Below are positions 1,684 to 17,019 of a stretch of DNA of 51,566 nt, piece by piece (the first letter of the stretch is position 1; every line of letters starts with the position of its first letter). The notes beneath the pieces are model-generated. The model was given only the letters and a program-made list of their open reading frames with translations, was not told where the DNA came from and ran no database searches. Source of the stretch: an uncultured Lachnospiraceae bacterium (GTDB lineage: Bacteria > Bacillota > Clostridia > Lachnospirales > Lachnospiraceae); contig CANQUG010000020.1 in assembly GCA_947626985.1 (NCBI GenBank), forward strand, positions 1 to 51,566. The letters run 5' to 3'. A program made the translations under genes and the position numbers.

Positions 1684-1759
1684 TTTAAACCACCTTTCTC
1701 GAGTTACACCCTTAGACATGATTTTTATTTGGGAATAAGCCAATCCAAGTGGGCTTTTG

Positions 1760-3087
1760 CTACAATCTCCACCAACTTATCCCTGCATTATCCAACTCAT
1801 TTACATTAAGTATTCCCTTAACATCAATCAGTACTTTGGGGCAGCTACCAATTTTAAATAAGTGGGTGATACCTTCGACCCCCATTTTTCTGAACTCATT
1901 ATGGGCAACAGCCACAATAATACAATCCACTCCGGAAATATCTTCTATTTTTGATAGCTTAATACCGTATTCTCTCATTGCTTCTTGCTCAGATACCCAT
2001 GGATCTACTACAATAGGGGCAATTCCATATTCTTTTAGTTTAGTAACAATATCAAAAACTTTGCTGTTTCTTATATCTGGGCAATTTTCCTTAAAGGTGA
2101 GTCCTAATATCAGTACCCCCCCCTCCCGGATTTTGCCGGAGCAAGTCCCGCTTGGACCATTTTCTTTACTGCAGTATCGGCTATATAAGCACCCATATAA
2201 TCATTTACAATTCTACCGTTCAAGATAATCTGACTATGGTAACCAAGCTTTTCGGCTTCATAAGTAAAATAGTACGGATCTACACCTATGCAGTGTCCAC
2301 CAACAAGTCCTGGCCTAAAGCATAAGGCATTCCATTTAGTGTTCATTCCATCCACGACTTCATTCGTATCAATATCCATACGATCAAATACCATCGCCAA
2401 TTCATTCATAAAAGCAATGTTTATATCCCGTTGGCTATTTTCAACAACCTTTATTGCCTCGGCCGTTCGAAGATTTGAGACTGGATACGTTCCTACTTCG
2501 ATAACAATATCATATATTTGCTGTATTTCTTGCAGTGACTCCTCATCAATGCCAGATACAACTTTTCTGATATTATGAAGTCTATGTACTTGATCACCTG
2601 GATTAATGCGTTCTGGGCTATATCCGACTTTAAAATCTCTACCGCATTTAAGCCCAGATTGCTGTTCAAGAATGGGAATACACACATCCTCTGTACAGCC
2701 AGGATAAACAGTTGACTCATAGACGACAATCGAACCAGGGATCAAATTCCGACCCACAATTTCTGATGCAGATATGACCGGGGTCAAATCTGGTGTATGA
2801 TCCGACTTAACTGGTGTTGGCACAGCAATAATATGGAACTTAGCTTTCTTAAGATCAATCTCATCAAATGTAAAATAGATCTTGGTCTTAGCAATTTCTT
2901 CATTTCCAACTTCATTCGTTGGATCTATACCTGACTTGTATAAATCAATTTTAGATTTATTCAAGTCAAATCCAATTACGTCAACTCCCTTCTTAGCGAA
3001 GGCGTGAGCAATTGGCATCCCAACATAACCAAGACCAATAACTGCCAGTTTTTCATCATGATTTATAATTCTTGTAAAAAGCGACAT
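1760..3087 (-). pseudogene. UDP-N-acetylhexosamine 6-dehydrogenase (WbpO/TviB/WbpA family), frameshifted at a G8 tract
   Basis: This family oxidises C6 of a UDP-HexNAc to the uronic acid with NAD. The Rossmann motif AVIGLGYVGMPIA is near residue 15 and the active-site Cys is in GGHCIGVDPYY near residue 263. After AKSGRGG the frame runs into a stop at once, giving a 325-aa protein without the C-terminal UDP-binding domain. The rest (VLILGLTFKENCPDIRNS onward, to 1760) continues in another frame. The shift falls in a run of eight G at 2116-2123; nine, or six, G would join the halves. It may be a reversible OFF state, real decay or a sequencing artefact. The neighbouring ugd encodes a second UDP-sugar dehydrogenase. 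Confidence 0.85.
2116..2123 (-). repeat. Poly-G tract (G8 in coding strand), candidate slippage site
   Basis: Eight C on the plus strand read as eight G in the UDP-HexNAc dehydrogenase, between the central dimerisation region and the C-terminal domain. Adding one G restores SGRGG-VLILGLTFKEN in a single frame. Confidence 0.75.
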
Positions 3088-3161
3088 TCCACTTCCTCCA
3101 TTTTACTCTCATTATTTTATTGAATTATTTAATGTCAAAATAAGTATGAAACGTTTATAGT

Positions 3162-4412
3162 TCAGTCCCTCCTAAACAAATCCCTCGTATAAACTTTATC
3201 CGCAACATCATCAAGTACTGATTCATATCGATTTACAATTATTACATCTATTCCTCGTTTGAATTTCTCAATATCGTTTACTATAAGGCTTCCAAAGAAT
3301 GTCGTTCCATCCGGCAATGTTGGCTCATATATGATTACAGTTGCTCCCTTTGCCTTAACACGCTTCATCACGCCCTGTATACTGCTTTGGCGGAAATTGT
3401 CGCTGTTTGATTTCATGGTCAAGCGGAACACCCCGATTGTAATCGGGCGTTCTTTCGCAGCATTCCACATACTTGATCCAGTATAATATCCCACTTTCTC
3501 AAGTACTTTGTCTGCAATAAAGTCCTTTCTTGTCCGATTGCTCTCAACAATCGCTTGTATCAAGTTTTCAGGCACATCTTGATAATTGGCCAGAAGCTGC
3601 TTCGTGTCTTTCGGCAGACAGTATCCGCCGTATCCAAAACTTGGGTTGTTGTAGTAATCACCTATTCGAGGGTCAAGGCTGACACCTCTGATAATATCCG
3701 CAGTATTCAGTCCTTTGACCTCTGCGTATGTATCCAGCTCGTTGAAAAATGAGATTCTAAGAGCCAAGTATGTATTTGCGAACAATTTTACAGCTTCAGC
3801 TTCGGTAAAGCCCATGTAAAGAACTTCTATATCCTTCTTTACTGCTCCCTCAACCAGCATTCCGGAGAAGATCTCCGCGGCATAACTGGTAGCCTCATCA
3901 CAGCCAACAATGATTCGGCTCGGATACAGGTTGTCGTAGAGTGCTTTGGATTCCCGCAGGAACTCCGGACTGAATATGATTCGGTCCGTGTTGTATTTCT
4001 TTCTTATTGACTTTGTATATCCAACCGGAATAGTACTCTTTATCACCATTACAGCCCTGCTGCTACTCTTCAACACCAGCTCAATCACAGTCTCGACTGC
4101 TGAGCAGTCAAAGAAGTTCTTCTGTGGGTCATAGTTGGTCGGGGCGGCGATAATCACAAAGTCTGCGTCCGCATAAGCACTTTCTCCGTCTAGTGTGGCG
4201 GTCAAATCAAGATTCTTCTCAGCCAGATATTCCTCAATCTCCTTGTCCTGGATCGGGCTAATTCTCTTGTTGATCTTTTCAACCTTCTCCAGGAGGATAT
4301 CTACCGCTGTCACCTGATTATTCTGTGCAAGCAACACAGCAAGCGACAGCCCGACATAGCCCGTCCCTGCAACCGCAATCCTGTACTTTTTCCCAGTGCT
4401 TTCACTTATCAT
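3162..4412 (-). CDS. ugd: UDP-glucose 6-dehydrogenase family protein
   Basis: Converts UDP-glucose to UDP-glucuronate with two NAD, supplying an acidic sugar. The N-terminal NAD site [15 protein letters not shown] spans residues 11-25. The catalytic Cys is in [14 protein letters not shown] near residue 261. The C-terminal domain includes [17 protein letters not shown]. At 416 aa it matches the short bacterial Ugd class and looks intact. The start has no better alternative downstream before the Rossmann fold. It lies 74 nt upstream of the frameshifted UDP-HexNAc dehydrogenase, so the locus is designed to make two different uronic acids. The substrate is inferred from family only. Confidence 0.9.
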
Positions 4413-4802
4413 TTCTATCTTCCATTCTATTAACTACCATAGATATATTGTTTACTATAAACTATTATTGAACGAACCGCTTTGCGGGACCTTCTGGTCT
4501 TTAAAGTTTCTACATGTGGGGGCTTGCATGCATTCTCACAGTATGTTGGAATTCAGTTCAGTCACTTTTCTCTTCAAAATCTAACCTATCCAGCCCACTC
4601 ACATCCCAGTGCAGATAACTCTCCATATTATCCCATGGGGATTGCCCGTTTATGATTTGTTATTTCTCTGATGATTTCCACAAAGCGCTCCATTCAATTG
4701 AATTGTCCAAAGCCAAGATTCTTTTTTACTAGCCCCCTGTACTAGCAGGCGGGCGATTTTCTTTTGCCTGGGCTCTGGGTCAATCCGCTTTTAATTAAAC
4801 AG
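4413..4802. other. 390-bp gap without recognisable gene
   Basis: AT-rich non-coding stretch between the WecG-like gene and ugd. No open frame with homology, no clear terminator and no convincing promoter were seen. It breaks an otherwise tightly packed operon and may mark a cassette junction or a lost gene. Confidence 0.5.
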
Positions 4803-5564
4803 TCATACTCTATACTTGGCTTGATAATATATCCACTTAAATCCACCTAAAATATATCTCTTCCATAGTCTCTTCGGCTCTTTGATTAATCTATACGCCC
4901 ACTCTAGACTCGCTTTTTCCATCCATGCCGGAGCTTTATCTAATGTTCCTGCAAAAAAATCAAATCCTGCTCCAACTCCCAGTATTACCGCGCCATGTAT
5001 CTTCTCCCTATGTTGCTGTATCCAGATCTCCTGCTTTGGAGCACCGATGCCAACCCAAAGAAAATCAGGGGCTGCATTGTTTATCTCATCACAAACCGCA
5101 TTATCTTCATCATCTGTCAGTGGTCTGAACGGCGGGGAATACATGCCTTTAATTTGAATTCCCTGATAATCATGTTCCAAATTGTCACGAAGTTTTTTTA
5201 AGACGATACTGTCTTTCCCACCATAGAAAAAATGCGTCTTTCCACGCTTTACACTTTCTTGAAAAACAAGCGGCATAATATCAGGTGCTGCACATCGTTC
5301 ACAATTGAAGCCCCTTTTTTTTCCTATTTTTACAATTGGCATACCATCTATTGCAGCAAATGTACAACTTTTATAAATTTCCGCTATATCAGGATTCTCA
5401 CATGCATATATAACAGCAGGAACACCAATTAAACATACAGATCCGCTTACTGGTTCTGTAGGCATAGAAAAAACCTCTCTGACAAATTCTTCCTTAGTAG
5501 TTGCACATATACCAACTGTGTTACATACGGTAAAATCCCTGGTTCTGCGATATATAGTGCTCAT
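4803..5564 (-). CDS. WecG/TagA/CpsF family glycosyltransferase
   Basis: Members (GT26) transfer a HexNAc-type sugar from UDP to an undecaprenyl-PP-linked acceptor as the second step of wall or capsule polymer assembly. The hallmark C-terminal block GVGAGFDFFAGTLDKAPAWM, followed by EWAYRLIKEPKRLWKRY, lies at about residues 195-240. The N-terminal half has the conserved CLIGVPAV and CTFAAIDGMPIVKIGKK stretches. At 253 aa it is full length. It starts 4 nt after the stop of the dehydratase gene, so the two are very likely translationally coupled. Exact donor and acceptor are unknown. Confidence 0.88.
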   Translation of the reverse strand: MSTIYRRTRDFTVCNTVGICATTKEEFVREVFSMPTEPVSGSVCLIGVPAVIYACENPDIAEIYKSCTFAAIDGMPIVKIGKKRGFNCERCAAPDIMPLVFQESVKRGKTHFFYGGKDSIVLKKLRDNLEHDYQGIQIKGMYSPPFRPLTDDEDNAVCDEINNAAPDFLWVGIGAPKQEIWIQQHREKIHGAVILGVGAGFDFFAGTLDKAPAWMEKASLEWAYRLIKEPKRLWKRYILGGFKWIYYQAKYRV

Positions 5565-5568
5565 AATA

Positions 5569-6606
5569 TTACCTCGTCAAAAATGCTTCGCCTTTGCCGA
5601 CCCTTTCTCTCCAGTAGTCAAGCAGGTCATGCATCGTCTTTTCAAACGGAATCTGCGGCTCCCAGCCAGTATGTGCCTTGAACTTACGGCAGTCGGGTAC
5701 TTGGAGATCCGCATCAATTGGGCGCAGGCGCTCGGGGTCAGTAATGATCTCGATCTTATCCTTCATTGTTGAGTAAGAGATAAGCGTGTTCAGCGTGTCG
5801 CCGACCTCGCAGGTATAGCTACCGCCGATGTTGTAATACTCTCCCGCAATCGGATTGACTGTGACAAGCATATAATACGCTCTAACTGCGTCTCTGACAT
5901 CGGCGTATGTACGAAGCGACTTGAGATTTCCGACCATGACCTTCGGCTCAATCATTCCAGCCTCAATCATAGCAATCTGCTTCGCAAATGTGGATTCATG
6001 GAACACGTCGCCGCGTCTCGGACCAGTATGGGTAAACATTCTTGTAGTCATAACCTTCATATCGTAAGCTTCAGCATAGTATCTGCCCAAAAGGTCGGTA
6101 CCTACCTTAGAAATTGCATACGGGCTTGCCGGGTGAAACGGACATTCCTCATGAATACCCGTCTCAGGCTTTTTTCCGGCAGGAATCTTACCGAAAACTT
6201 CCGAAGACGCGCAGACGTGAATAACCGGGTGGTAATCCATATCCTCCGCCATTGCAAGGCGGAAGGCTTCAAGAAGACGACAAGTGCCAAGAATATTTGT
6301 ATTTAAAGTATCAATTGGAACAGTGAAGCTTGTGTAAGGATAGCTCTGTGCTGCTAGATGGAACACGTAATTTGGCTTGATGTTATTCACAACTGTAATG
6401 AGGCTCATCTCATCGTTCAAATCGGCATACTTAAAAAACATGCGGTCTTTTCTGTTCACGCGGTCAAGCAAATGCGAAACATTGTCCAAGGGACTTCTCC
6501 AACGGCATACTCCGTAAACGTCCCAGTCCGTATTTTTAAGCAGGAAATCTGCAAGGTGAGAACCTACCATACCAGTTATTCCAGTAATCAAAACCCTTTT
6601 ACTCAT
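5569..6606 (-). CDS. GDP-mannose (or GDP-manno-heptose) 4,6-dehydratase-like SDR enzyme
   Basis: Extended short-chain dehydrogenase of the GMD family, which makes GDP-4-keto-6-deoxy sugars. Motifs are the NAD(P) loop LITGITGMVGSHLADFLL at the N-terminus, VFHLAAQSYPYTSF, CASSEVFG, and the catalytic YAISK near residue 163 in SPYAISKVGTDLLGRYY. ATG 6606 is chosen because AGAGGGAA precedes it and it begins 1 nt after the upstream stop; a GTG at 6624 would overlap that gene. Because gmhA, hddA and hddC-gmhB lie in the same operon, GDP-D-glycero-D-manno-heptose is the more likely substrate, as for WcbK/DmhA-type enzymes. That assignment is inference; GDP-mannose remains possible. Confidence 0.82.
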   Translation of the reverse strand: MSKRVLITGITGMVGSHLADFLLKNTDWDVYGVCRWRSPLDNVSHLLDRVNRKDRMFFKYADLNDEMSLITVVNNIKPNYVFHLAAQSYPYTSFTVPIDTLNTNILGTCRLLEAFRLAMAEDMDYHPVIHVCASSEVFGKIPAGKKPETGIHEECPFHPASPYAISKVGTDLLGRYYAEAYDMKVMTTRMFTHTGPRRGDVFHESTFAKQIAMIEAGMIEPKVMVGNLKSLRTYADVRDAVRAYYMLVTVNPIAGEYYNIGGSYTCEVGDTLNTLISYSTMKDKIEIITDPERLRPIDADLQVPDCRKFKAHTGWEPQIPFEKTMHDLLDYWRERVGKGEAFLTR

Positions 6607-6607
6607 A

Positions 6608-7540
6608 CTATTTTCCCTCTGCACTTTCAGTATAATTTTTGTAAAACGTTGTCAGTCCATCTCTTAAGCTAGTTTTAGGGCACCACCCCAAACTGCGTAT
6701 TTTTGCCGAATTCAAGTGTCCTCTGCTAGATCCACTCGGTTTGGATAAATCATTATATATTTCTCCTGAGTATCCAACAACATCAGCAATAATTGAGGCC
6801 AGTTGATTTATGGTTACAGTTTCATATCCACAAATATTAAACATATATGTTGGCAAGTCCTCTAGTTGAAGAATTACTTCAATAGCATCAATAAAGTCGT
6901 CCACAAATAAAAACTCTCTTGTGTTTTCCCCATCTCCCCAAATATCAACACGATTATTATTGTTTATTTTGGCATTATGGAATCTACTAATCATCGACGG
7001 TATAACACTTGAATAATCAATGTTATAGCCTATTCCATTCCCATACATATTAACAGGAAGTAATGATATGTATTTTGTTTTAAACTCTCTATTGTAATAT
7101 TCACAAAGTTTCATTCCGGCTAATTTAGCAAGACCATAAGGTTCTGTGCTTTTTTGAACGGCTTCTTTGTCATAATCGTTTTCCGAATACACACATTCCG
7201 GATTAGATCCATATACACAACTTGCACCTATATTTATAAGCTTATTGACTCCCGCATCAAATGCAGCAGAAATAGTATTTGTACAAATAAGAATATTGTC
7301 TTTAAAGTATTCGACTGGTTTAGTTTTATATTCATCTATGCCGCCGTGCCTTGCCGCCACAAGGATCACAATATCCGGCTTCACTTTTTTTAAATATTCA
7401 AGCGTAGCCGCATAATCCCTTAAGTCAATACAATAATCGGCTGACGCTACAAAATTATATCCGCCTTCCTTCAATCTTTTAACCAAGGCGGTTCCTACTA
7501 ATCCCTGACCCCCAGCAATACACACCCTTCCGTTAAACAT
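6608..7540 (-). CDS. NAD(P)-dependent epimerase/reductase, GDP-fucose-synthase-like
   Basis: SDR-family protein acting on an NDP-keto-deoxy sugar, probably the reductase or epimerase that follows the 4,6-dehydratase. Motifs: RVCIAGGQGLVGTALVKRL at the N-terminus, NIGASCVYGS, and the catalytic Tyr/Lys pair in EPYGLAKLAGMKLCEYY. Length is 310 aa from the second of two adjacent ATGs, which has AAGGAG 7 nt upstream; the first ATG (7543) is possible. It overlaps the upstream reductase gene by 8 nt and is followed after 1 nt by the dehydratase gene. With the other Fcl-like gene it suggests two consecutive modification steps. Confidence 0.83.
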   Translation of the reverse strand: MFNGRVCIAGGQGLVGTALVKRLKEGGYNFVASADYCIDLRDYAATLEYLKKVKPDIVILVAARHGGIDEYKTKPVEYFKDNILICTNTISAAFDAGVNKLINIGASCVYGSNPECVYSENDYDKEAVQKSTEPYGLAKLAGMKLCEYYNREFKTKYISLLPVNMYGNGIGYNIDYSSVIPSMISRFHNAKINNNNRVDIWGDGENTREFLFVDDFIDAIEVILQLEDLPTYMFNICGYETVTINQLASIIADVVGYSGEIYNDLSKPSGSSRGHLNSAKIRSLGWCPKTSLRDGLTTFYKNYTESAEGK

Positions 7541-8447
7541 CATAATTCTCCTTATACCATTCAACCGTTTTCTTTAATCCCTCTTCAAAGGGCATTGTAG
7601 CCTTCCAGCCTAACAACTCATATGCTCTATGACCATCTACTGTTTTTATAAGAGCGCCATCTGGCCAAGAAGAATCAAATATCAGTTGCCCATCAAATCC
7701 AACTAACTTGGCGATTATTTCAGCAGTCTCTTTAATTGAATGACCTTTCTTTTCTCCAATATTAACAATACCAACGATCCTGTCAGCTGAAATTGCTCTA
7801 TAAAGGGCATCCACGGCGTCATCGATATAAAGCCATTCTCTGATAGGCTTTCCCGTGCCGTATACTACAAATTCTTTGCGGTTGCTTTTCTTAGCATCTA
7901 AAAGCCGCTTTATCATTCCACCGACTGCATGCGCTCTTTCTTCATCAAAGTGATCCCCCGGACCATACATATTACTCATAACTAAATTGATCGTATCTAA
8001 CCCATATTCTTTTCCATATGCTTCGCAAGCAACGACAAAAGCTTTCTTTGCTGTGGCAAACGGAAGTACAGATTCATGAATCGGGCCATCCCAAAGCTTA
8101 TCCTCTACATAAACATCCAAATCACCTGGATATACACAGGAGCCAATAGGATTAATAAGCCGACTGACATTATAAATTCGGCAGGCTTCAAGAATATTTA
8201 TCTGCATTTCCATGTTATTTGTAAACATTTCAGCCGCGTGCTTTATTCCGAAATGGACTCCTCCGAGGAATGCGGCCAAGTTAATTACAATATCTGGATG
8301 ATACCTTTTAAATAAATCTAAAGTAGCGCTCTTGTTTTGTAAATCGCATTGTTCATGGCTACAAGGAATAAAGTCTATTTTTTCTCTACCAAGGCGTTCC
8401 ACCATTGCTTTTCCAACAAATCCTTCGGCCCCAAGTACCAAAATCAT
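7533..8447 (-). CDS. GDP-fucose-synthase-like SDR with Tyr-to-Phe change at the catalytic YxxxK
   Basis: 304-aa extended SDR that resembles GDP-L-fucose synthase: MILVLGAEGFVGKAMVERL at the N-terminus, NLAAFLGGVH, IGSCVYPGD, MYGPGDHFD, IREWLYIDDAVDAL. Where Fcl has EPYAIAKIAG, this protein has LPFATAKKAF, so the catalytic Tyr is Phe (TTT codon, no sign of frameshift), while the Lys and the Ser/Cys pair remain. It may have another chemistry, such as epimerisation using other acids, or may be a partner of the neighbouring intact reductase. It overlaps the next gene by 8 nt in the same operon. Function beyond NDP-sugar modification is unknown. Confidence 0.8.
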   Translation of the reverse strand: MILVLGAEGFVGKAMVERLGREKIDFIPCSHEQCDLQNKSATLDLFKRYHPDIVINLAAFLGGVHFGIKHAAEMFTNNMEMQINILEACRIYNVSRLINPIGSCVYPGDLDVYVEDKLWDGPIHESVLPFATAKKAFVVACEAYGKEYGLDTINLVMSNMYGPGDHFDEERAHAVGGMIKRLLDAKKSNRKEFVVYGTGKPIREWLYIDDAVDALYRAISADRIVGIVNIGEKKGHSIKETAEIIAKLVGFDGQLIFDSSWPDGALIKTVDGHRAYELLGWKATMPFEEGLKKTVEWYKENYDV

Positions 8448-8461
8448 TATGCCATCCCCCT

Positions 8462-9480
8462 TTATTCACTTTTTATATTTTCTCTCGGAGTATAACTTTC
8501 AGGTGTATAATGAATTACACGCGTTCCACCATCTTCAAAGCAAAATGGAACATATAATAATTCTTTCATGGCCTCCATTACGCTTTCTCTCTTTCCTTCT
8601 TGAACATAGAAGATTAAAAATCCACCTCCGCCAGCACCAAGGAGTTTACCTCCAAGCGCACCGGCCTGAATACCTTTTTGATAAAGTTCATCAATGGAAT
8701 TTGTAGTAATAGCGTTACCAGTTTTACGTTTCAACTGCCATGTAATATGAAGCAATCGCCCAAAATCATCTAGATCGGAGTGATTATCTTCCAGAATCAT
8801 TTTTGCTTCATCTACTAGCTTATACATTTCCTGCAGTTTCTTTATTTTGTCTATATAGCCACTAGCATTTATTTTCTGCATGTCGGATGAGATTCTAGTA
8901 AACCCAGTAAAGAACATTAACAAATTATTATTGAGTTGCTTCTTTCTTTCAGGATGAATTATAATCGGTGTAACCTCATATGTTCCATTCTTATTAAAAC
9001 TGATTTTATTCATTCCTCCATATGAGGCGGCTATTTGATCTTGCCATCCCCCAGCTTCATTACATAATACCCGTTCCAAATAAATAGCCTCATTGGCTAA
9101 TCTTTGTTTATCAGCATATTTTCCTTTTAACGCATGAAAAGCATTTAACATCCCCACAGCAAAAGATGATGATGTACCAAGCCCTGATCTTGCTGGCAAA
9201 TCAGCTTCATAAGATAATCGAATTTCATGCATATCAAGCATTTTCATCGCATTTCTAATTGCAGGATGCTCTATCAATTCTATATCAGATACTCTTTCCG
9301 TTTTTGAATATGATAATTCAGAGGACCAATCAAAAAAGCGTGGCAAGTGGCGTACATTAACATAGCAATATTTGTCAAATGTAGTTGATAAAACAGCACC
9401 ACCATATTCTTTAAAAAACTTTCCATATCAGTTCCACCACCAAAAAATGACATGCGAAACGGTGTCTTTGTGATAATCAT
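8462..9480 (-). pseudogene. hddA: D-glycero-D-manno-heptose 7-phosphate kinase, copy 1, frameshifted near the 5' end
   Basis: GHMP kinase closely similar along its length to the intact hddA at 11437-12447. The N-terminus MIITKTPFRMSFFGGGTDM is encoded from 9480. A run of six T then puts the ribosome out of frame after ESFLKN, and the remaining sequence (GGAVLSTTFDKYCYVNVRHL onward, with PARSGLGTSSSF and LGAGGGGFLIFY) continues in another frame to 8462. One extra T would restore ESFFKEYGGAVLS. The ATP-binding motifs of the downstream part are intact, so the break is recent or artefactual. The second copy can supply the activity. Confidence 0.87.
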
Positions 9481-9549
9481 CGTCCTCTTTACTTCCTTCC
9501 AAAAATCATAAAATCAATCATCAGAATCAATTGAAGAAAACTAATACTT

Positions 9550-10194
9550 TTATTTGAAAAAAATATTCTCCAACATAAGGCACAAACAATGATACACCGG
9601 CAAATGCAGCTCCTGCACCATATACGTCTCTGTCTCAGGGACTCTTATGCACACGTCCGCCATTTCGCTGAGCTTGCTTTCTTTTTGTCCCGTCAGACCT
9701 ATGACCTTCATTCCCCTTGCCTTAGCCGTGACTGCGGCGTAGAGCACGTTTTTGCTATTGCCGGAAGTAGAAATCCCGAGAAAAACATCATTGTCATTCC
9801 CGTATCCGTTGACCTGTTGCGCAAAACAGAGCAGCGGCTCGCAGTCGTTTTGGTAGGCAGTCGAAAGCGCCGGGTGACCGTCGATGGCGATTGCAGGGAG
9901 TGCGCCCTGTAAATTCTCGGCGAGGGTTTTACCGAGCTCGGGATTAACGGCTATAAGCCTGTCCACATACTCTTTCGGGAGCTTGCGCGGGTTCTTAAAC
10001 CCCTTCATCAGCTCGCCGACGATGTGCTCGGCGTCGGCTGCAGAGCCTCCGTTACCGGCAATAAGGAGCTTCCCGCCGTGCGCATAACAGGCTTCAATAA
10101 GCTCATAAGCCTTTGCTATGTCGTTCTTGCATACTGCCAACTGTGGGTATCTCTCAATCAAAAGGTCGAGTTGGGCTTTAGCTTTCTCGGTCAT
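9550..10194 (-). CDS. gmhA: Sedoheptulose 7-phosphate isomerase (SIS domain)
   Basis: First step of the heptose pathway: sedoheptulose-7-P to D-glycero-D-manno-heptose-7-P, in the cytosol. A single SIS domain of 214 aa carries LLIAGNGGSAADAEHIVGEL near residues 44-63, the STSGNSKN phosphate-binding loop near residue 140, and the C-terminal helix with QELHLPVYH. It overlaps the end of the hddC-gmhB gene by 17 nt, which points to coupled translation. It differs from DiaA and other SIS proteins by the long insertion LMKGFKNPRKL, seen in GmhA-like enzymes of GDP-heptose clusters. Confidence 0.9.
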   Translation of the reverse strand: MTEKAKAQLDLLIERYPQLAVCKNDIAKAYELIEACYAHGGKLLIAGNGGSAADAEHIVGELMKGFKNPRKLPKEYVDRLIAVNPELGKTLAENLQGALPAIAIDGHPALSTAYQNDCEPLLCFAQQVNGYGNDNDVFLGISTSGNSKNVLYAAVTAKARGMKVIGLTGQKESKLSEMADVCIRVPETETYMVQELHLPVYHCLCLMLENIFFK

Positions 10195-11440
10195 ATGTTT
10201 CCTCCAAAATCACCTCAACCGCTTTCAGCAAATCTCCATCGGTCGGGATTATTTTTGTTCGGCAACCTGCCGCTTCTCCCGCGCCTCTGTCGTGTTCGCC
10301 GTCGCCTATCATCCAGGAACTTTCGAGATCGATGTTGAAGTCTTTTGCCGCTTGAACCAACATTCCCGGTTTTGGCTTGCGGCAACTGCAGTCGAACTTG
10401 AGTTCTTTGACCTCTCCCCCAAACCCGCTGTCTGGGTGGTGCGGGCAGAAGTAAATGCCGTCAAGATACGCTCCGTCAGTACCGAGCAGGGTTTCCATCT
10501 TGTTGTGTATCTCGTCAAGTTCCGCAAAGGTTATCTCACCGCGTGCAATCACTGGCTGGTTCGTTACGACTATTGCGAGATATCGTGAACGATTTATCTG
10601 CTTTATTGCCTCTGAAACTGTAGGCAGAAGCTCGAAGTCGTCAATATTGCGAAGAAATCCTTTATATTTATTGATCGTCCCGTCGCGGTCGAGAAAAATC
10701 GCTTTCTGCTTGTTGCGCAGGTTTCTTGCGAACACCTTGCCGCTCTCAAAGTCGCGGCTCACCGTCTCAACCCTCTCCGGTGTGCCCATATCCTTGACAT
10801 ACTCGGAACTGCCGTAGCAGAACATTTTACCAGTCCCTGCAAGGTGCTTTAGCAAGTGTCGGTCTAAATCTATCTTTGATAAGTCAACATCGCTCTCCAA
10901 AAGCTTCGGGGAGATGATGTGAAGCCCCGCGTTGACACAGTTCTTGTAAAATTCGGGACGCTCGTCCTCTTTAGCGAGCCATTTCTGAACCGATTTATTC
11001 TCATCCGCGATGATAAGTCCGCTGTCATAGGGGTGATCATTTGGGTGGGTGAACAGCGTCGCAAGGGCATTGTACTCCTTATGGAATGCTACAAATCGGT
11101 TGAAGTCTATATTAAAAACCGAATCGGCGTTAAGAAGAAGAAAGTCATCTGTCAGCTTGTCACGAAGCTTAAACAGTGCTCCTGCGTTGCCGAGGGGCTT
11201 ACCCTCAACGAAATAATTTATATGTACGCCGAATTTGGCTCCGTCACCAAAGTAATCAATTATCTTCTCCGCCATATGGCTTACGGTCAGGATTATGTCG
11301 GTGAAGCCTTGGTCTCTGAGACACTCGATTTCATGTTCCAAGACCGGTTTGTCACAAATAGGGATAAGAGGCTTCGGAATATCCGGAAAAAGCTCGGAAA
11401 TTCGTGTACCTTTCCCGCCAGACATTATTACCGCTTTCAC
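10178..11440 (-). CDS. HddC-GmhB fusion: heptose 1-phosphate guanylyltransferase + heptose 1,7-bisphosphate phosphatase
   Basis: A two-domain 420-aa enzyme. Residues 1 to about 235 are a nucleotidyltransferase (MKAVIMSGGKGTRISELFPD, PKPLIPICDKPVLEH, LGNAGALF, LLLNADSVF). Residues from about 245 are a HAD phosphatase of the GmhB class (FLDRDGTIN, IVVTNQP, the zinc-type cluster CPHHPDSGFGGE...CSCRKPKPG, MIGDGEHD). The C-terminal half removes the C7 phosphate from the 1,7-bisphosphate, and the N-terminal half activates heptose-1-P with GTP. The two domains occur in reverse order of reaction. It overlaps hddA by 4 nt (ATGA) upstream and gmhA by 17 nt downstream. Confidence 0.9.
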   Translation of the reverse strand: MKAVIMSGGKGTRISELFPDIPKPLIPICDKPVLEHEIECLRDQGFTDIILTVSHMAEKIIDYFGDGAKFGVHINYFVEGKPLGNAGALFKLRDKLTDDFLLLNADSVFNIDFNRFVAFHKEYNALATLFTHPNDHPYDSGLIIADENKSVQKWLAKEDERPEFYKNCVNAGLHIISPKLLESDVDLSKIDLDRHLLKHLAGTGKMFCYGSSEYVKDMGTPERVETVSRDFESGKVFARNLRNKQKAIFLDRDGTINKYKGFLRNIDDFELLPTVSEAIKQINRSRYLAIVVTNQPVIARGEITFAELDEIHNKMETLLGTDGAYLDGIYFCPHHPDSGFGGEVKELKFDCSCRKPKPGMLVQAAKDFNIDLESSWMIGDGEHDRGAGEAAGCRTKIIPTDGDLLKAVEVILEETYDRES

Positions 11441-12447
11441 TTTTTCTCCTCCGCGGGTGTATAGTTTTCCGGCGAATAATATATGACCCTCGTTCCTCCG
11501 TTCTCAAACTCGAACGGAACGTAAAGCAGGTCTTTCATCGTCTCCATAATGCTTGCGCGGCGTTCCGGTTGGACGTAGAAAATCATAAATCCCCCGCCTC
11601 CTGCGCCCAAAAGCTTTCCACCCAAAGCGCCAGCAGCTATGCCTTTTGCATAAAGAGCATTAATGCCTTCAGTTGTAACCGCTGCGCCTGTTTGCCGCTT
11701 CAATTTCCACGTGTAATCCAAAAGTCTACCAAAATCATCAAGATTAGCGTACTTATCTATTAATATATTTTCAGCTTCATCAACGAGAGTGAGCATTTCC
11801 TTCAACTGTGCAGTCTTATCCCCACGTCCTTTAGCATTCGCCTCTTGAACTTCAGACGAAAAGCGCGTAAAACCCGTAAAAAACATCACGAGGTTATCGT
11901 TAAGTCGACGCTTACGTTCAGGTGATATTATTACTGGCCTCACTTCATAGCCATTGGCATTGAAACTGATACGATTCAGTCCTCCAAACGAGGAGGCTAT
12001 CTGATCCTGCCAGCCCCCCGCTTCGTTACAAAGCGTGCGTTCGAGGTAAATTGCTTCATCAGCGAGTCTACCCTTATCCGCATATTTTCCTTTTAACGCA
12101 TGGAAAGCATTGAGCATTCCGACCACAAAAGAAGATGACGTTCCAAGACCAGAACGCGCAGGCAAATCTGACTCATATGTTAGACGAATTTCATGCATAT
12201 CAAGCATTTTCATAGCATTACGAATCGCAGGATGTTTAATTTGTTCGACGTCAGTCACGCGCTCGGTCTGGGAATAACAAAGCTCGGTCGAATAGTCAAA
12301 GAAACGTGGAAGATGACGCACATTTACATAGCAGTACTTATCAAATGTCGTTGATAATACTGCACCACCGTGTTTTTCAAAAAAATCCTTCATATCCGTT
12401 CCGCCGCCAAAAAAAGACATGCGAAAGGGAGTCTTTGTAATTATCAT
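11437..12447 (-). CDS. hddA: D-glycero-alpha-D-manno-heptose 7-phosphate kinase, copy 2 (intact)
   Basis: GHMP-superfamily kinase making heptose 1,7-bisphosphate. It is 336 aa and unbroken, with MIITKTPFRMSFFGGGTDM at the N-terminus, the ATP loop PARSGLGTSSSFVVGMLNAF, and the third motif GALGGKLLGAGGGGFMIFY near residue 290. It is the first complete enzyme gene after loaP. Its stop overlaps the start of the hddC-gmhB fusion by 4 nt. A second, frameshifted copy lies at 8462-9480, so the kinase gene was duplicated or two heptose cassettes were joined. Upstream of it is a repeated leader-like sequence rather than another gene. Confidence 0.92.
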   Translation of the reverse strand: MIITKTPFRMSFFGGGTDMKDFFEKHGGAVLSTTFDKYCYVNVRHLPRFFDYSTELCYSQTERVTDVEQIKHPAIRNAMKMLDMHEIRLTYESDLPARSGLGTSSSFVVGMLNAFHALKGKYADKGRLADEAIYLERTLCNEAGGWQDQIASSFGGLNRISFNANGYEVRPVIISPERKRRLNDNLVMFFTGFTRFSSEVQEANAKGRGDKTAQLKEMLTLVDEAENILIDKYANLDDFGRLLDYTWKLKRQTGAAVTTEGINALYAKGIAAGALGGKLLGAGGGGFMIFYVQPERRASIMETMKDLLYVPFEFENGGTRVIYYSPENYTPAEEKK

Positions 12448-13048
12448 CTCTTACCAATACCTTTCGACTACTAAAAGAATAGTAATTCTTCCTAAATGTA
12501 AAATAGCGGAGATTAGTAACACTCCGAGCCTGCCTTTCGCCACATCGTTTGTTAAATACAACTTTATGGGTGACCTTCCTCATCCAGCCTCAGATATCTA
12601 TTCCGTCCGACAGCTCTAAACTGCCGGTGTGACATTGCCTAACATGGGCATTTCTTTCCAATATCTGTCTCTTTGTAACCTCTTTGTTTTTGTGCCTAAT
12701 ATTACTCCAGCACCCATCACCGCAACTGTTAATGGCTTTTCTATTTTTTCATCTTTCAAGGTCACGCACTCCCTCAGTAGTAAAATTCTTTCTAAACATA
12801 AAATGACGGTGGGAAGCAAATCTTAAGGTTACAAATAAAATGATTCCGTAAACCTGCATAGTAAAAAAATATAGGAGACAAGCAACGCCTCGATCATTTC
12901 TTTCTCCGCATCGCTAATTTAAAACTTAATTATGAGGCCGCTTTTTCTCAACTAGGTCAAACAGAATCAGCCCGGTGACTCATGGATGGGGTGTATTATC
13001 GGCAATTTAGGCACTTTATATAAAAATAGTAGGCAAGCCGGGAACAAT
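12448..13048. other. 600-bp region with decayed leader/gene remnants
   Basis: No intact gene. It holds two of three related leader-like repeats. One is followed by a short minus-strand frame (about 12616-12759) that begins like the neighbouring GT fragment (LKDEKIEKPL versus LKDENVQKPL) and then loses similarity. This looks like scar tissue from cassette exchange. Confidence 0.55.
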
Positions 13049-13585
13049 TTATGTGCAACATGCTGTGCTAAAATTAGTGCTTATTATTACTGAGTCCCCA
13101 TGTATCGTTACTACAACACGCTTTCCCATAAGTTTCGGCAGCCAGGACATTGCCGCAGGACCTTCCGTATGGATGTGTACCACATCATAATTTCCAAATG
13201 CTGCTCTAATCGCCGCCGATATTGATGAACTCATTGCTGCAAAGCCTTTATGATTAATGGTGAAAACAGATTTCAGCTTCACGCCTTTATACTCTTTCAG
13301 TTTTTGTCCATCAAACTCTTCACCGCTCACGTGATGGCCGCGACGGTTGTAGCATGTTACCTGGTGCCCATGTTGAACCATCCTGGTACTCAGTTCCTCT
13401 ACAACGACTTCGACGCCACCCTCACCACAGGCAGGTACCCTTTTGTGGCCAAAAGCAGCCGCGGCTAGCGGTTTCTGTACATTTTCATCTTTCAAGGCCC
13501 TGCACTCCCTCAGTAACAAAATTCTTTCTAAACATAAAATAGCGGAGACTAGCAAAACTCCAAGCTTGCTTTCCTCCGCATCGCT
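12481..13585 (-). repeat. Three dispersed copies of a 50-75 bp leader-like sequence
   Basis: Related sequences lie at 12481-12547 (just upstream of hddA copy 2), 12735-12815 and 13475-13585. Shared blocks include AACATAAAAT/AATGTAAAAT, AGCGGAGA and CTTTCCTCCGCATCG-like ends, with CTCCCTCAGTA in two copies. Each lies at or near the 5' end of a gene or gene remnant on the minus strand, as expected if homologous leaders help swap sugar-gene cassettes. Confidence 0.6.
13049..13495 (-). pseudogene. Truncated GT4 glycosyltransferase (N-terminal fragment)
   Basis: The fragment reads GHKRVPACGEGGVEVVVEEL, then STRMVQHGHQVTCYNRRGHH, VFTINHKGFAAMS, DVVHIHTEGPAAMSWLPKL and GKRVVVTIHG. That is the N-terminal half of a rhamnosyltransferase-like GT4 of the GHKRIPSREGGVE type. 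After VTIHG the similarity stops and the frame ends, so the catalytic C-terminal half is gone. VPACGEGG in place of the usual PSREGG also suggests damage. The nearest in-frame start is TTG 13495. It was probably once the first transferase gene after loaP. Confidence 0.75.
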
Positions 13586-13917: not shown

Positions 13918-14424
13918 CTAACTCTTCCCCACAACCTCCAGCCCCACCTGCAGTTCCACCATCCTCCCGAACAGCTCCACCTCCAGATAAGCTTTCCGTT
14001 TATGCCTGTCAATCCGTTTAATATATTTCTCCATTCCCGCCAGCGGTCCTTCCATAATCCGCAGATCCCCGGCATCGATAATTCCCTCGGACATCTCTAC
14101 CTTCTGTCCTTCTCCGCCGATCTTCAGAAGCCATTTTTGCTCATCAGAAGTAAGCGGCACAATCTCCTGGCCGGTTCCGAGAAGCTTCGTAAGTCCGATG
14201 ACTTTCCTCAGCCCCTCGCAGAGACCTTCTATTTTTTCTGTAATCATAAAAACATACCCAGGAAACAGAACCTTTTCCTGAGTATGCCATTTGCCTTCAT
14301 ATTTCTTTTTTTCTTCATAATAGGGAATAAAACAGCGCTCAAGTATTTCCTCGCTGATGATATTCCTGCACTGGCAGCAGACGGATTCCTCTGTGCCGGT
14401 ACGCACCTGCATAACATACCACAT
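13918..14424 (-). CDS. loaP: LoaP-type NusG paralog, processive antiterminator
   Basis: 168-aa protein with an NGN domain (MWYVMQVRTGTEESVC, then EKVLFPGYVFM near residue 55) and a C-terminal KOW domain (MEGPLAGMEKYIKRIDRHKR). LoaP proteins ride on RNA polymerase and let it read through terminators in long polysaccharide or polyketide operons. Here it directly precedes about 13 kb of sugar genes, which fits. AAGGAGG stands 8 nt before ATG 14424, and the sequence GGAGGAATCCTCC around it is palindromic, so the ribosome site could be partly masked. It is distinguished from housekeeping NusG by the GPLxGMEKYIKRID signature and its position. Confidence 0.9.
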   Translation of the reverse strand: MWYVMQVRTGTEESVCCQCRNIISEEILERCFIPYYEEKKKYEGKWHTQEKVLFPGYVFMITEKIEGLCEGLRKVIGLTKLLGTGQEIVPLTSDEQKWLLKIGGEGQKVEMSEGIIDAGDLRIMEGPLAGMEKYIKRIDRHKRKAYLEVELFGRMVELQVGLEVVGKS

Positions 14425-14465: not shown

Positions 14466-15063
14466 GCTGCCAGGTATAACCGCATTAGATGGAAATATCA
14501 GAGGTATTTTCAAATTCTACGGAATTCCATCTCTTTTACCAGTTTTTCAGCGCCCAAGCGCCTGCATTTGGGTATGCTTCGCCATTCTGCCATGTTTCAG
14601 GCAGACTTAAGTTCAAATATGACCATCTATATTCTCAAACGCGGCAAAGCGACGATTTAAGCATATAGAATCCTGACAATTCTCCCCGCTGCAGCCATCC
14701 AGCTTCTGCAGGACAGGTTTTGCACCACTTTCTTGCTGTTTGTTATTTTATAACTTGGAATACCCTCCCCCGCGCACCGTCTCGTTCCATAGGAGACAGC
14801 ATTCATTCCTGCGCAGGGCGTCTTCGCCGTCTCTTTCTGCTCCGGCTTTTTCCGAAGCAGCCAGACGCGACAGGCGGTATTCGACCCAACAGGGACAGTC
14901 TCTGGCGGTCCCCGTTTTTCAGCTCTCGCCTTTTATAAATCAAAGCAGTCCTTATCCGCTCCAATTCCATTATTAAAATAATTGTCCAAAATATGCCGAC
15001 TGCAGATCCAAATGTTCAAATCTCTCCACTCCTGCAATCTGACACATTTTCACGACTTATTTT
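14466..15063 (-). ncRNA. Structured non-coding region between the TnpB-like gene and loaP
   Basis: Nearly 600 nt with no credible gene. The stretch 14760-14935 on the minus-strand RNA folds well by eye. CTGCTTCGG pairs with CCGGAGCAG (9 bp, loop AAAAAG). GAGAC and GTCTC enclose a GGCG-AAGA-CGCC hairpin. GGGAC pairs with GTCCC. A second GTCTC/GAGAC pairing is an alternative fold. Guide (omega) RNAs of TnpB-type proteins are encoded at exactly this place, overlapping or following the 3' end of the gene, so this is the obvious place for one. It could instead be an attenuation leader for loaP. No guide-target match was found by eye within the window. Confidence 0.45.
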
Positions 15064-16380
15064 TCACCCGGACTCCCTCTCCTGAAACTGCCTCCGGCAC
15101 TTCACTGCCAGGTTTCTGGCCGTATTCAGATACCGATTCACCCGATGTCCCATCCTGCAGATACATTCCTTCGACTTTCCGCTTTCCTCTATCAGAGGCT
15201 GACCGCACTTCGCGCAGACCGTACCGGTCCCGCCGGCATAAGTTTCCATCACAATAATTCCGGATTTCCATGCCTTATAGCGAAGATAACTGCGGACGCG
15301 GGTGCTTAAATCCAGTGGACTCCACTTGCCGGCGCCTTTCATTACATTCCGGGTGTAGTCACTTTTATATTTCGGAAGAACGATGATATCTGTATGATGC
15401 TCCTCACAAAAACGAATAATCTCACGGCTCACCTGGTGCGCATAATGCTCCCGGAGATGCTTTAAATGCACCCAATATTTCCGGTTTGCCAGTCCTTCCG
15501 GGGAATCTCCCAGAGAATCTGCAGAAGAGCTGATCTTGTCCAGCACTTTTCTGCAGTGATGGCTGTATTCCAAGCCGCCATTGAAAAATTTCACGGCTGT
15601 TTCCTTCCCGTTTGCGTCACAGATACTTGCCACCGCAAAGGCGTCGCCGTTGGTAAACTGTATCCCGCAGATATTTCCGCCGTCTTCCAGACGTTTTTTC
15701 ACAGGAGAAATATTCTCCACAGGCTCGCGAACCGGTACATGAAGCATAAGGAAGGAGCCTTCCGGCACCACAGACGGCGACAGCATTCTGGCATTTTGAG
15801 GAAAGTCTCTGCCGGAAAGCCTGCAGCCCAACCAGTTCCATTTCTCTCCATCCCATACCTTCAAAGTAATATGCTCCGAAGAGAAATCTCGGTACATGCG
15901 GCTGTAATAGACCACTGCGGAATGAATTTCCTCTGCAGGAATTCCCGCTCTGGATACTCTGGAGAAAATCCATTTTTCTCCAGACGGATAAGCATCAAAA
16001 CCGTCCGCCTTCCGGTCTGTATCCGCATCCTCCGCCTCGTTCCGGTCAGCATCGTCCACTGCCCTTTTCCTCGACAGAAAACTCTTCGCCGCGGCAATTC
16101 CACCATTGATGGCAGCCCTGCGAAAGTAGGGAGGTACATCCTCCCAAGGAAGCGGCGTCTGCGGACTTCGTTTTTCTTTTCCGGGAAGACTCAGAAATTC
16201 CAGAGAGCGAAGAATCTCCTGGCTGTTCAATCCCCATAGTTCTTCATGGGCCAGCAGAAGGTCATAATAGAATTTTACAATTCCATCATAAAGCTCCTGT
16301 GTCCGAATCAGCCATTCCGGATGACTGCAGCGCAGCCGGAACCGATATGTGGTGATGCTGTAGCCCTGATTGCTGCTCAT
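15064..16380 (-). CDS. TnpB-family protein with all three RuvC catalytic acids replaced (nuclease-dead)
   Basis: A 438-aa relative of the IS200/IS605 OrfB/TnpB RNA-guided nuclease. The C-terminal RuvC-like fold is visible, but RuvC-I reads ICGIQFTNGDAFAVAS (Q241 for Asp), RuvC-II reads DIIVLPKYKSD (P336 for Glu), and RuvC-III reads GHRVNRYLNTARNLA (N415 for Asp). The zinc-ribbon cysteines remain (C389, C392, C406, C408), and the helical N-terminal half is long. No TnpA transposase or element ends were found beside it. The losses together with an intact frame suggest an exapted RNA-guided DNA-binding regulator like the described TldR proteins. It is the first gene after the invertible promoter and lies upstream of loaP. 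ATG 16380 has AGGG 8 nt upstream. Confidence 0.8.
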   Translation of the reverse strand: MSSNQGYSITTYRFRLRCSHPEWLIRTQELYDGIVKFYYDLLLAHEELWGLNSQEILRSLEFLSLPGKEKRSPQTPLPWEDVPPYFRRAAINGGIAAAKSFLSRKRAVDDADRNEAEDADTDRKADGFDAYPSGEKWIFSRVSRAGIPAEEIHSAVVYYSRMYRDFSSEHITLKVWDGEKWNWLGCRLSGRDFPQNARMLSPSVVPEGSFLMLHVPVREPVENISPVKKRLEDGGNICGIQFTNGDAFAVASICDANGKETAVKFFNGGLEYSHHCRKVLDKISSSADSLGDSPEGLANRKYWVHLKHLREHYAHQVSREIIRFCEEHHTDIIVLPKYKSDYTRNVMKGAGKWSPLDLSTRVRSYLRYKAWKSGIIVMETYAGGTGTVCAKCGQPLIEESGKSKECICRMGHRVNRYLNTARNLAVKCRRQFQERESG

Positions 16381-16633: not shown

Positions 16634-16660
16634 TGTCGCTAATCTACCTATTTAGCGACA
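16634..16660 (+). repeat. Left 27-bp inverted repeat of the inverton
   Basis: Arms TGTCGCTAA and TTAGCGACA around TCTACCTAT. It is the exact reverse complement of the copy at 16993-17019; identity ends sharply on both sides. Confidence 0.93.
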
Positions 16661-16703
16661 CCCGTTTTTTGATGTTTTTACGTCCTTTTTCAGGACATTA
16701 GTT

Positions 16704-16732
16704 ATGATAGCACCCTGTACATGTCTTGTCAA
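16704..16732 (-). promoter_or_regulatory. Sigma-A-type promoter inside the inverton
   Basis: Minus strand TTGACA, a 17-nt spacer, then TATCAT. The -35 is perfect and the -10 has five of six consensus bases. A small hairpin (GTCCT/AGGAC, 16683-16697) follows at about +1. It drives transcription out of the segment toward 16380. Confidence 0.8.
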
Positions 16733-16824
16733 GCCGTCATTTCTGGTATTTTCTGTCCGGATTTCCATCATTTTATGTAAAAATCATTCCAAAATTCTGC
16801 AAAAATCGGGCTTTCAGGAGCTAT

Positions 16825-16938
16825 AAGTGGTCAAAAAAGTGGTCAGATTTCATGTCCCGGAAGCCGCACAAACACTGGGGTTTTACCGGGTTTGATTGTA
16901 TACGATGTAATTTCAGAAGTGGTCAAAATAAGTGGTCA
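16825..16938 (+). repeat. Four copies of AAGTGGTCA in two close pairs
   Basis: Copies start at 16825 and 16837 (12-bp spacing) and at 16917 and 16930 (13-bp spacing), all in the same direction, within the inverton and upstream of its promoter. They look like binding sites for an activator or a recombination accessory factor. Confidence 0.65.
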
Positions 16939-16992
16939 GATAGAGTTTCTGATGTGAAAACAGACGGTAAATTCAGGGATTTTCTCAGAAAA

Positions 16993-17019
16993 TGTCGCTA
17001 AATAGGTAGATTAGCGACA
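16993..17019 (-). repeat. Right 27-bp inverted repeat of the inverton
   Basis: Exact reverse complement of 16634-16660. It ends 8 bp before the terminator stem. Confidence 0.93.

Follow-up and report, generated by a model that had tools for sequence, protein, structure and literature searches.

Why should a gene descended from a transposon nuclease, with its catalytic residues gone, stand at the head of a polysaccharide operon and behind an invertible promoter? The question is raised by a gene for a nuclease-dead TnpB homologue, here dTnpB, on contig CANQUG010000020.1 of an uncultured Lachnospiraceae bacterium, a Blautia (GCA_947626985.1); the whole stretch of 51,566 nucleotides analysed is called the window. 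Our analysis leads us to propose that dTnpB and a guide-type RNA encoded beside it constitute an RNA-guided regulator resembling TldR, the TnpB-like nuclease-dead repressor, which has been built into phase-variable polysaccharide loci; taken as a whole, this proposal has in our judgement about an even chance of being correct. It is concerned with the following features of the window.

15064 to 16380, minus strand: dTnpB, nuclease-dead TnpB homologue of 438 aa, in which Q241, P336 and Y417 replace the RuvC acids and C389, C392, C408 and H412 are retained
14750 to 14932, minus strand: omegaRNA-like scaffold core 3' of dTnpB, with covarying helices, a GAATAC/GTATTC pseudoknot and the 3' end AAGTTAT
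14734 to 14749, minus strand: guide-like segment AAAATAACAAACAGCA, immediately 3' of the scaffold
16635 to 16659, plus strand: inverted-repeat arm beside dTnpB, of the recombination-site type GTCGCTAATCTACCTATTTAGCGAC
16660 to 16993, no strand assigned: invertible promoter segment, which stands ON in the assembly and is reversed in the sister loci C26, C5 and C28
16704 to 16709, minus strand: -10 box TATCAT, at a 17-nt spacing, facing dTnpB
16727 to 16732, minus strand: -35 box TTGACA, belonging to the segment's only promoter with at most two mismatches to the consensus
16994 to 17018, minus strand: distal inverted-repeat arm

Descent from TnpB and loss of the active site are both legible in the protein. 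The open reading frame (ORF) is uninterrupted over its 438 aa and matches the TnpB/Cas12f zinc-ribbon family PF07282 at 32.2 bits, above the cut-off of 26.3, and residues 168-425 match the NCBIfam model guided_TnpB weakly, at 39.4 bits, below its cut-off of 100. In the phmmer alignment with the closest solved relative (8hr5, 'Transposase', E 1.5e-5) the catalytic Glu stands opposite P336 and the last Asp, that of NADYNAARN, opposite Y417, in a column that holds D in intact TnpB relatives; the family alignment places Q241 at the position of the first RuvC Asp. The zinc-ribbon residues C389, C392, C408 and H412 are all present. A preliminary description of this DNA had announced a nuclease-dead TnpB homologue with an intact frame and a retained zinc ribbon, and the PF07282 match, the open frame, the four ribbon residues and the loss of all three acids bear this out. 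It had named Q241, P336 and N415 as the replacements; the first two are correct, and N415 is ruled out by the 8hr5 alignment and by the D of intact relatives in the column of Y417, two residues away, which leaves the conclusion of a dead site standing. Its statement that no TnpA is present holds for the Y1 type: no match to PF01797, the Y1 transposase that marks IS200/IS605 elements, was obtained at E <= 0.001 in the assembly, which is 97.6% complete, in a search that did not extend to TnpA of the serine type or to element ends.

The dead site is a property of a family and not of this copy. The genome of the window (4.08 Mb in 200 contigs, 97.6% complete) contains four PF07282 matches, on contigs C20 (the window), C26, C5 and C28; the three sister proteins share 65-77% identity with the window's, all four genes stand ahead of polysaccharide genes, and a fifth copy is a decayed fragment on C5 (C5:77302). 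A scan of 61 genomes, this one and 60 relatives, gave matches in ten, all of the same genus; one of the ten, G022, has only intact TnpBs among its matches, so that the dead form is present in 9 of 37 same-genus genomes and in 0 of 24 others. A wider scan covering 84,980 species, each represented by a single genome, returned 66 loci, among them loci of Blautia, Coprococcus comes, Candidatus Mediterraneibacter, Anaerotruncus colihominis and other Clostridia, with several copies in an Acetivibrio metagenome-assembled genome (MAG; eight loci), in Eubacterium callanderi (four) and in bacterium 1XD42-1 (four). The frame is open over 350-500 aa in 59 of the 66, the intact outgroups L131 and L132 included, and shorter, partial or interrupted in the other seven, some of which lie at contig ends. 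In an alignment of 70 rows (the four own proteins and the 66 fetched), L131 and L132, distant TnpBs of about 20% identity, are the sole rows with RuvC acids; without them the acids D1, E2 and D3 are retained in 0/65, 0/67 and 0/65 readable rows, so the three losses hold throughout the dead clade. The Glu position is Pro in 63 rows, and the zinc-ribbon Cys residues are present in 63-64 of the 70. A tree of 66 proteins sets five intact TnpBs on one side of a branch with 100/100 support, and a single ancestral loss therefore suffices. The ratio dN/dS lies between 0.06 and 0.17 across 12 pairs of dTnpB genes, values that are rough because synonymous differences approach saturation in several pairs; judged by this ratio, dTnpB is under purifying selection in the dead clade. 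These ratios speak against decay of the gene in related strains, which the preliminary description had named as a sign against its reading. A search of viral contigs and phage records turned up no relative of dTnpB.

The second component is a guide-RNA-type scaffold, which, as sequence and covariation indicate, is encoded directly 3' of dTnpB, as is the case for TldRs. For 32 copies, chosen by their end motifs and aligned without reference to structure, RNAalifold returned 21 pairs, 16 of them with compensatory changes. The named structure is paired in 92.6% of cells compared with 67.1% in shuffles, its covariation of 0.710 compares with 0.238 (0/500 shuffles as high on either measure), and its count of pairs with double changes was equalled by 1/500 shuffles; versions of the structure slid along the alignment were all beaten on both covariation and percentage paired. 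The pseudoknot GAATAC/GTATTC is paired in 191/191 cells (91.7% in shuffles) with a covariation of 0.434 against 0.264 (0/500), and has six pair types, which is no more than in shuffles; its variants include GAGCAC/GTGCTT, GAGCGC/GCGCTT and GAATAT/ATATTC. By eye, a similar plan in other letters can be followed in E. callanderi (TAGCAC/GTGCTA) and Acetivibrio (CAGCATC/GATGCTG); in about one third of the loci, chiefly the more distant ones, the RNA was not recognised by such motifs. At the 3' edge in the 32 loci AAGTTAT carries 1.55-2.0 bits of information per position, the next positions (+1 to +11) carry 0.3-0.9 and those beyond 0.0-0.4, an edge such as the passage from an omegaRNA scaffold to a guide should show.

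The third component is the invertible promoter, or inverton. Directly upstream of dTnpB stands an inverted-repeat pair, which in the window has the form TGTCGCTAA...TTAGCGACA; its arms are often 200-350 nt apart, and in some loci the distance exceeds 1 kb. Searched across the window's genome, the 25-bp site pattern gave 11 sites, against 0 for the reversed-pattern control: each of the four dTnpB loci has a pair, the end of C107 has another, and the eleventh site stands alone by the decayed dTnpB fragment. Each of the four dTnpB segments carries a near-consensus promoter, TTGACA-17-TATCAT or TATTAT, with a second, weaker one in C5. The promoter faces dTnpB in the window and faces away from it in C26, C5 and C28, so in the assembly the window locus is ON and its three sisters are OFF; the repeats flank a promoter and both of its orientations are seen, between paralogues and not in reads of one locus. 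In a uniform search, repeats turned up in 42 of 56 search windows adjoining dTnpB, against 7 of 192 control windows taken from other parts of these loci. Scripted calls on the 47 loci with repeats gave 9 ON, 26 OFF and 12 undecided, as read from assemblies, each of which is a population consensus. A tyrosine-recombinase homologue stands near dTnpB in 13 of 70 loci, inside the inverton in some of them, and the window's genome has one that is unlinked, with 61% identity to the query.

Some smaller features accompany these invertons. At the end of C107 (G000:C107 51-424, L050) an inverton is cut by the contig end and no dTnpB is assembled; the decayed dTnpB fragment on C5 (G000:C5 77258-77556, L049) has one repeat arm next to it and no second. 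Inside the segments there are direct repeats in tandem, of the form AAGTGGTCA-N3..5-AAGTGGTCA, in the window at 16825-16845 and about 16917-16941 and in other Blautia invertons, and are possibly sites of a recombinase accessory factor or regulator. In L055 (9991-10293) and L056 (10663-10807) a second inverted-repeat pair lies between the RNA and the polysaccharide genes, and the operon may therefore have a switch of its own.

Neither the RNA, nor the invertible promoter, nor the three sister copies had been noticed in the preliminary description. The arrangement of gene, RNA and inverton recurs in many loci and is therefore not chance, and we hold with high confidence that a dead active site is here combined with a real RNA partner and phase control. 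From this we propose a model for the activity of dTnpB. A tyrosine recombinase would flip the promoter segment, and in the ON orientation the promoter would transcribe dTnpB, the RNA and the polysaccharide cargo. The protein would then bind the guide-type RNA, and the complex probably binds DNA under RNA guidance; it would do so without cutting and would block transcription at other polysaccharide loci, such that the ON locus would hold down competing coats in trans. An ON locus would be the main source of dTnpB, and the protein is therefore most naturally taken to work in the ON state. The exapted RNA-guided regulator of the preliminary description is thus upheld as far as a dead TnpB, a conserved and covarying guide-type RNA and the missing Y1 transposase are concerned, and falls short in that the three guides of the window's own genome that were searched genome-wide gave no convincing target there.

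It is in the Acetivibrio MAG that guides match other loci. The guides of L097, L104 and L107 share TTAGATAAGTTATTATA; the scaffolds of L097 and L107 are only 63% alike in their last 60 nt. A search of that genome for TTAGATAAGTTATTATA with at most two mismatches gave three other sites, the reversed-pattern control giving three in all. The first is an exact match of the L107 guide from its first base (21/21) on contig C84, where the expected number of an exact 21-mer in 2.4 Mb is about 2e-5; it falls in a gap of 170 bp that has a Wzy_C ORF on one side and, on the other, six polysaccharide ORFs all in one direction, 34 nt before the start of the first of the six, a DegT aminotransferase, on a contig without a dTnpB hit. 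At the second, the guide of L097, one of two loci called ON in this MAG, matches from its first base at 19/20 positions, or 20/21 when one more base is counted; the site precedes the -35 box of the L112 inverton by 6 nt. The third, with two mismatches, is within a coding frame. In a promoter-proximal test shuffled guides equalled L097, L104 and L107 in 0/100 cases, these three being the sole exceptions among 33 guides; the exact site and the L112 site share only TA on their 5' side. Such matches suggest other loci as putative targets, and to this extent the control of a competing polysaccharide locus envisaged in the preliminary description gains a basis in one Acetivibrio MAG, with none convincing in the window's genome.

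A number of results weigh against action at a distance. The matches are confined to this single MAG; moreover, the likeness of L104 to the C84 site extends past the guide length, and three Blautia loci have 16 nt of this sequence ahead of dTnpB, so the Acetivibrio matches could be a shared cis-element. The L112 cargo lies past its contig end, the C84 site stands between co-directional genes, where a promoter is only hypothetical, and its motif is found again upstream of dTnpB in other genera; for these reasons we lower our estimate that dTnpB acts on other polysaccharide loci to slightly below even. More tentative again is the proposal that the dTnpB-omegaRNA of an ON locus represses rival polysaccharide clusters in trans, as an RNA-programmed counterpart of allelic exclusion, in which the divergence of guides between some paralogues means that the wiring could be rewritten by guide drift. 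Against strict exclusion stand the two loci called ON in each of two MAGs and the isolate B. schinkii DSM 10518, with one ON call and a weak second, though these calls, too, come from population consensus assemblies. The guide itself is odd for a specific one, positions +1 to +11 being strongly A- or T-rich with little C across the 32 loci. When its first 16 nt were compared with both flanks, gaps scored as differences, it was hypervariable in only 4 of 14 related-locus pairs (for example L088/L119: 0.88, 0.50, 0.91) and as conserved as the flanks or more so in three (L089/L090, L097/L107 and L101/L112), the other pairs being undecided.

The target searches point the same way. Three of the four guides of the window's genome (C20, C28 and C5) were searched genome-wide. 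With up to three mismatches in 18 nt the C28 guide found only itself, and the C20 guide found 11 other sites with two or three mismatches, compared with four for the reversed control, none of them convincing; the nearest has two mismatches in 18 (C126) and ten more have three. When the search string was TTAT followed by the first 11 nt of the guide, C28 found two other sites and C5 none, against eight and three in controls. Comparison of guides with their own and sister loci, by 14-mers, a TTAT-anchored scan, longest prefix, an anchored motif and several assumed 5' flanks, gave nothing clearly beyond chance outside the Acetivibrio guides, and in the promoter-proximal test, here of 16-mers, 30 of 33 guides did no better than shuffles or other genomes. 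Tests on upstream regions gave no or a small excess (with TA as the assumed flank, five matches of at least 8 nt where 2.5 were expected), and whole-locus matches of at least 11 nt numbered 83 against 68 expected, homologous RNA copies included, the longest control match being 16 nt. With two mismatches allowed in 18, the guide of L096 (E. callanderi) has no further site in its genome; that of L109 (Acetivibrio) has one further site, which differs at one position and lies within a coding frame.

Two observations stand beside these searches. The L079 guide, taken from base 5, has an 18-nt match at about 5434-5451 of L086, at the start of a heavy-metal-ATPase-like ORF, both loci belonging to B. 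schinkii DSM 10518, and this exceeds in length every control match in another genome. A GATAAGTTAT-like motif, which resembles the RNA 3' end and the Acetivibrio guides, recurs ahead of dTnpB, between about -40 and -230, in a number of Blautia loci, L067-L075, L085 and L086 among them.

Among other explanations the one that survives best is control in cis, which we consider unlikely and yet the most serious. Here dTnpB would bind the omegaRNA carried by the dTnpB mRNA itself, or else the promoter or 5' untranslated region of its gene, and would tune read-through into the polysaccharide genes by autoregulation, processing or antitermination, with no target in trans. The common direction of dTnpB, RNA and cargo (in 53 of 62 loci the next ORF shares the strand of dTnpB) would suit such a role, as would the GATAAGTTAT-like motif upstream of dTnpB in many Blautia loci and common to the Acetivibrio guides, and the lack of a target for the Blautia guides searched. 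Against it, in the window's genome and the other Blautia the guides do not match their own and sister promoters and upstream regions clearly better than controls, a result that gives no support to the control of its own locus entertained in the preliminary description, and the Acetivibrio guides match two other places.

Control of inversion, in which the complex would bind the inverton or the recombinase gene and bias or lock the switch, appears to us distinctly improbable. The steady link of dTnpB to an inverton (42/56 search windows), the recombinase homologues near it in 13 of 70 loci, some within the inverton, and the position of the Acetivibrio L112 site inside an inverton all favour it, and near-matches of two guides in the window's genome fell near two recombinase genes. 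As targets these near-matches were rejected: they lie 3' of one gene and within the ORF beside the other, and their position, their mismatches at guide bases 5 and 8 and the lack of a common 5' flank make them look like chance. The recombinase as an object of control, the last of those proposed at the outset, thus has no support here; and in upstream regions, among them the invertons, guide matches do not clearly exceed those of controls.

Phages are often what polysaccharide switching serves to escape, and guides aimed at phages or other foreign DNA, as in the binding-only immunity of Cas12m, would agree with this and with the lack of a convincing host match for the Blautia guides searched. 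We nevertheless regard this explanation as very unlikely: of the two guides covered by the phage-target search, C28 has no exact 18-nt match in viral contigs, and C20 has six exact matches, from six different samples by contig names, for which chance is plausible as the 18-mer is A-rich. That dTnpB is a functionless IS200/IS605 relic hitch-hiking in polysaccharide islands, as its TnpB ancestry and the one decayed copy (C5:77302) might suggest, is scarcely credible, since it is already contradicted by the purifying selection (dN/dS 0.06-0.17) and the missing Y1 transposase, which together rule out a decaying transposon gene, and by the covarying RNA, the fixed place behind invertons and the absence of relatives from the viral contigs and phage records searched.

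The proposed TldR-like regulator has counterparts in several known systems. Phage-encoded, fliC-associated TldRs were reportedly described by Wiegand et al. in 2024. These proteins (PMC13418256) resemble dTnpB in their descent from TnpB, the loss of RuvC acids, an adjacent guide RNA and a link to genes for a surface structure. Unlike them, dTnpB is chromosomal and belongs to Clostridia, the search of viral contigs and phage records having yielded no relative; it is tied to polysaccharide genes behind an inverton, and has candidate targets in one Acetivibrio MAG. Closer still are the csrA-TldR loci of Oscillibacter and Flavonifractor, which have hin, an inverton and predicted cross-targeting, and thus share with dTnpB loci several paralogues per genome, predicted cross-targeting and an upstream invertible promoter with a recombinase gene; they differ in that flagellin and csrA are combined with Hin, whereas dTnpB loci combine polysaccharide genes with tyrosine recombinases (PMC13418256). 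The same paper also gives a 6-nt seed and states that 6-nt guides sufficed to lower motility (PMC13418256). Neither csrA nor flagellin is among the 25 commonest of 55 families downstream of dTnpB, and the dTnpB clade is a new branch of the csrA-TldR idea, one tied to polysaccharides.

In Bacteroides, capsule operons have invertible promoters and the regulators UpxY and UpxZ as their first genes, and UpxZ proteins repress competing coats in trans by another mechanism. The two arrangements share several phase-variable polysaccharide loci, regulators in first place and promoters between inverted repeats; Bacteroides uses an antiterminator and a protein inhibitor, whereas dTnpB loci use a dead TnpB and a guide-type RNA, with a LoaP-type NusG at three of 70. 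A further counterpart is Cas12m (PMC10442227), which is likewise derived from TnpB, binds DNA without cutting it and silences transcription, and differs in serving CRISPR-linked immunity. A literature search of partial coverage found no account of a dead TnpB in polysaccharide invertons, and one may already be in print. If our proposal is correct, RNA-guided control of transcription by a domesticated TnpB extends from flagellin to the choice of capsule or exopolysaccharide in gut commensals (Blautia, Eubacterium, Anaerotruncus, Lachnospiraceae), and suggests how Clostridia coordinate several phase-variable polysaccharide loci. The clade is also a case of a dead TnpB, a guide-type RNA and an inversion system that evolved together as one unit.

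The genes that follow dTnpB and its RNA in the window are as listed here.

556 to 13555, minus strand: polysaccharide genes, comprising glycosyltransferases, WecG, UDP-glucose dehydrogenases, epimerases, GHMP kinases, SIS and NTP transferase
13918 to 14424, minus strand: loaP-type NusG paralogue (PF02357)

In the window dTnpB is the first gene of this co-directional run. Across the family we tallied the next two co-directional ORFs, called mechanically, which gave 111 ORFs from 58 of 67 loci; epimerases (21), Polysacc_synt_2 (18), Bac_transf (13) and GT2 (12) are prominent among them, and none of these four is among the 25 commonest families of the 106 ORFs upstream, beyond the inverton. Thus dTnpB displays the stable link to non-transposon genes, without a TnpA (the Y1 type having been searched), that is characteristic of TldRs. 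The preliminary description placed it at the head of a LoaP polysaccharide operon, and this is true at the window locus; a loaP-like gene, recognised by similarity to the window's, was found at only three of 70 loci (the window, C26 and L091), some loci being cut by contig ends. The loaP neighbourhood is accordingly not conserved and loaP is excluded from the conserved unit, so the name 'LoaP operon' fits the window locus and not the system. Between the RNA and loaP, at 14576-14666 of the window (minus strand), Rfam gives a RAGATH-28 match below threshold, at 26.5 bits where the gathering score is 45.3. On the upstream side PF09820 and PF08011 appear in the family tally, and upstream of the C5 locus (L007 1191-6437) three ORFs that resemble one another stand in tandem, each about 580 aa long and AAA-ATPase/PD-(D/E)XK-like in character.

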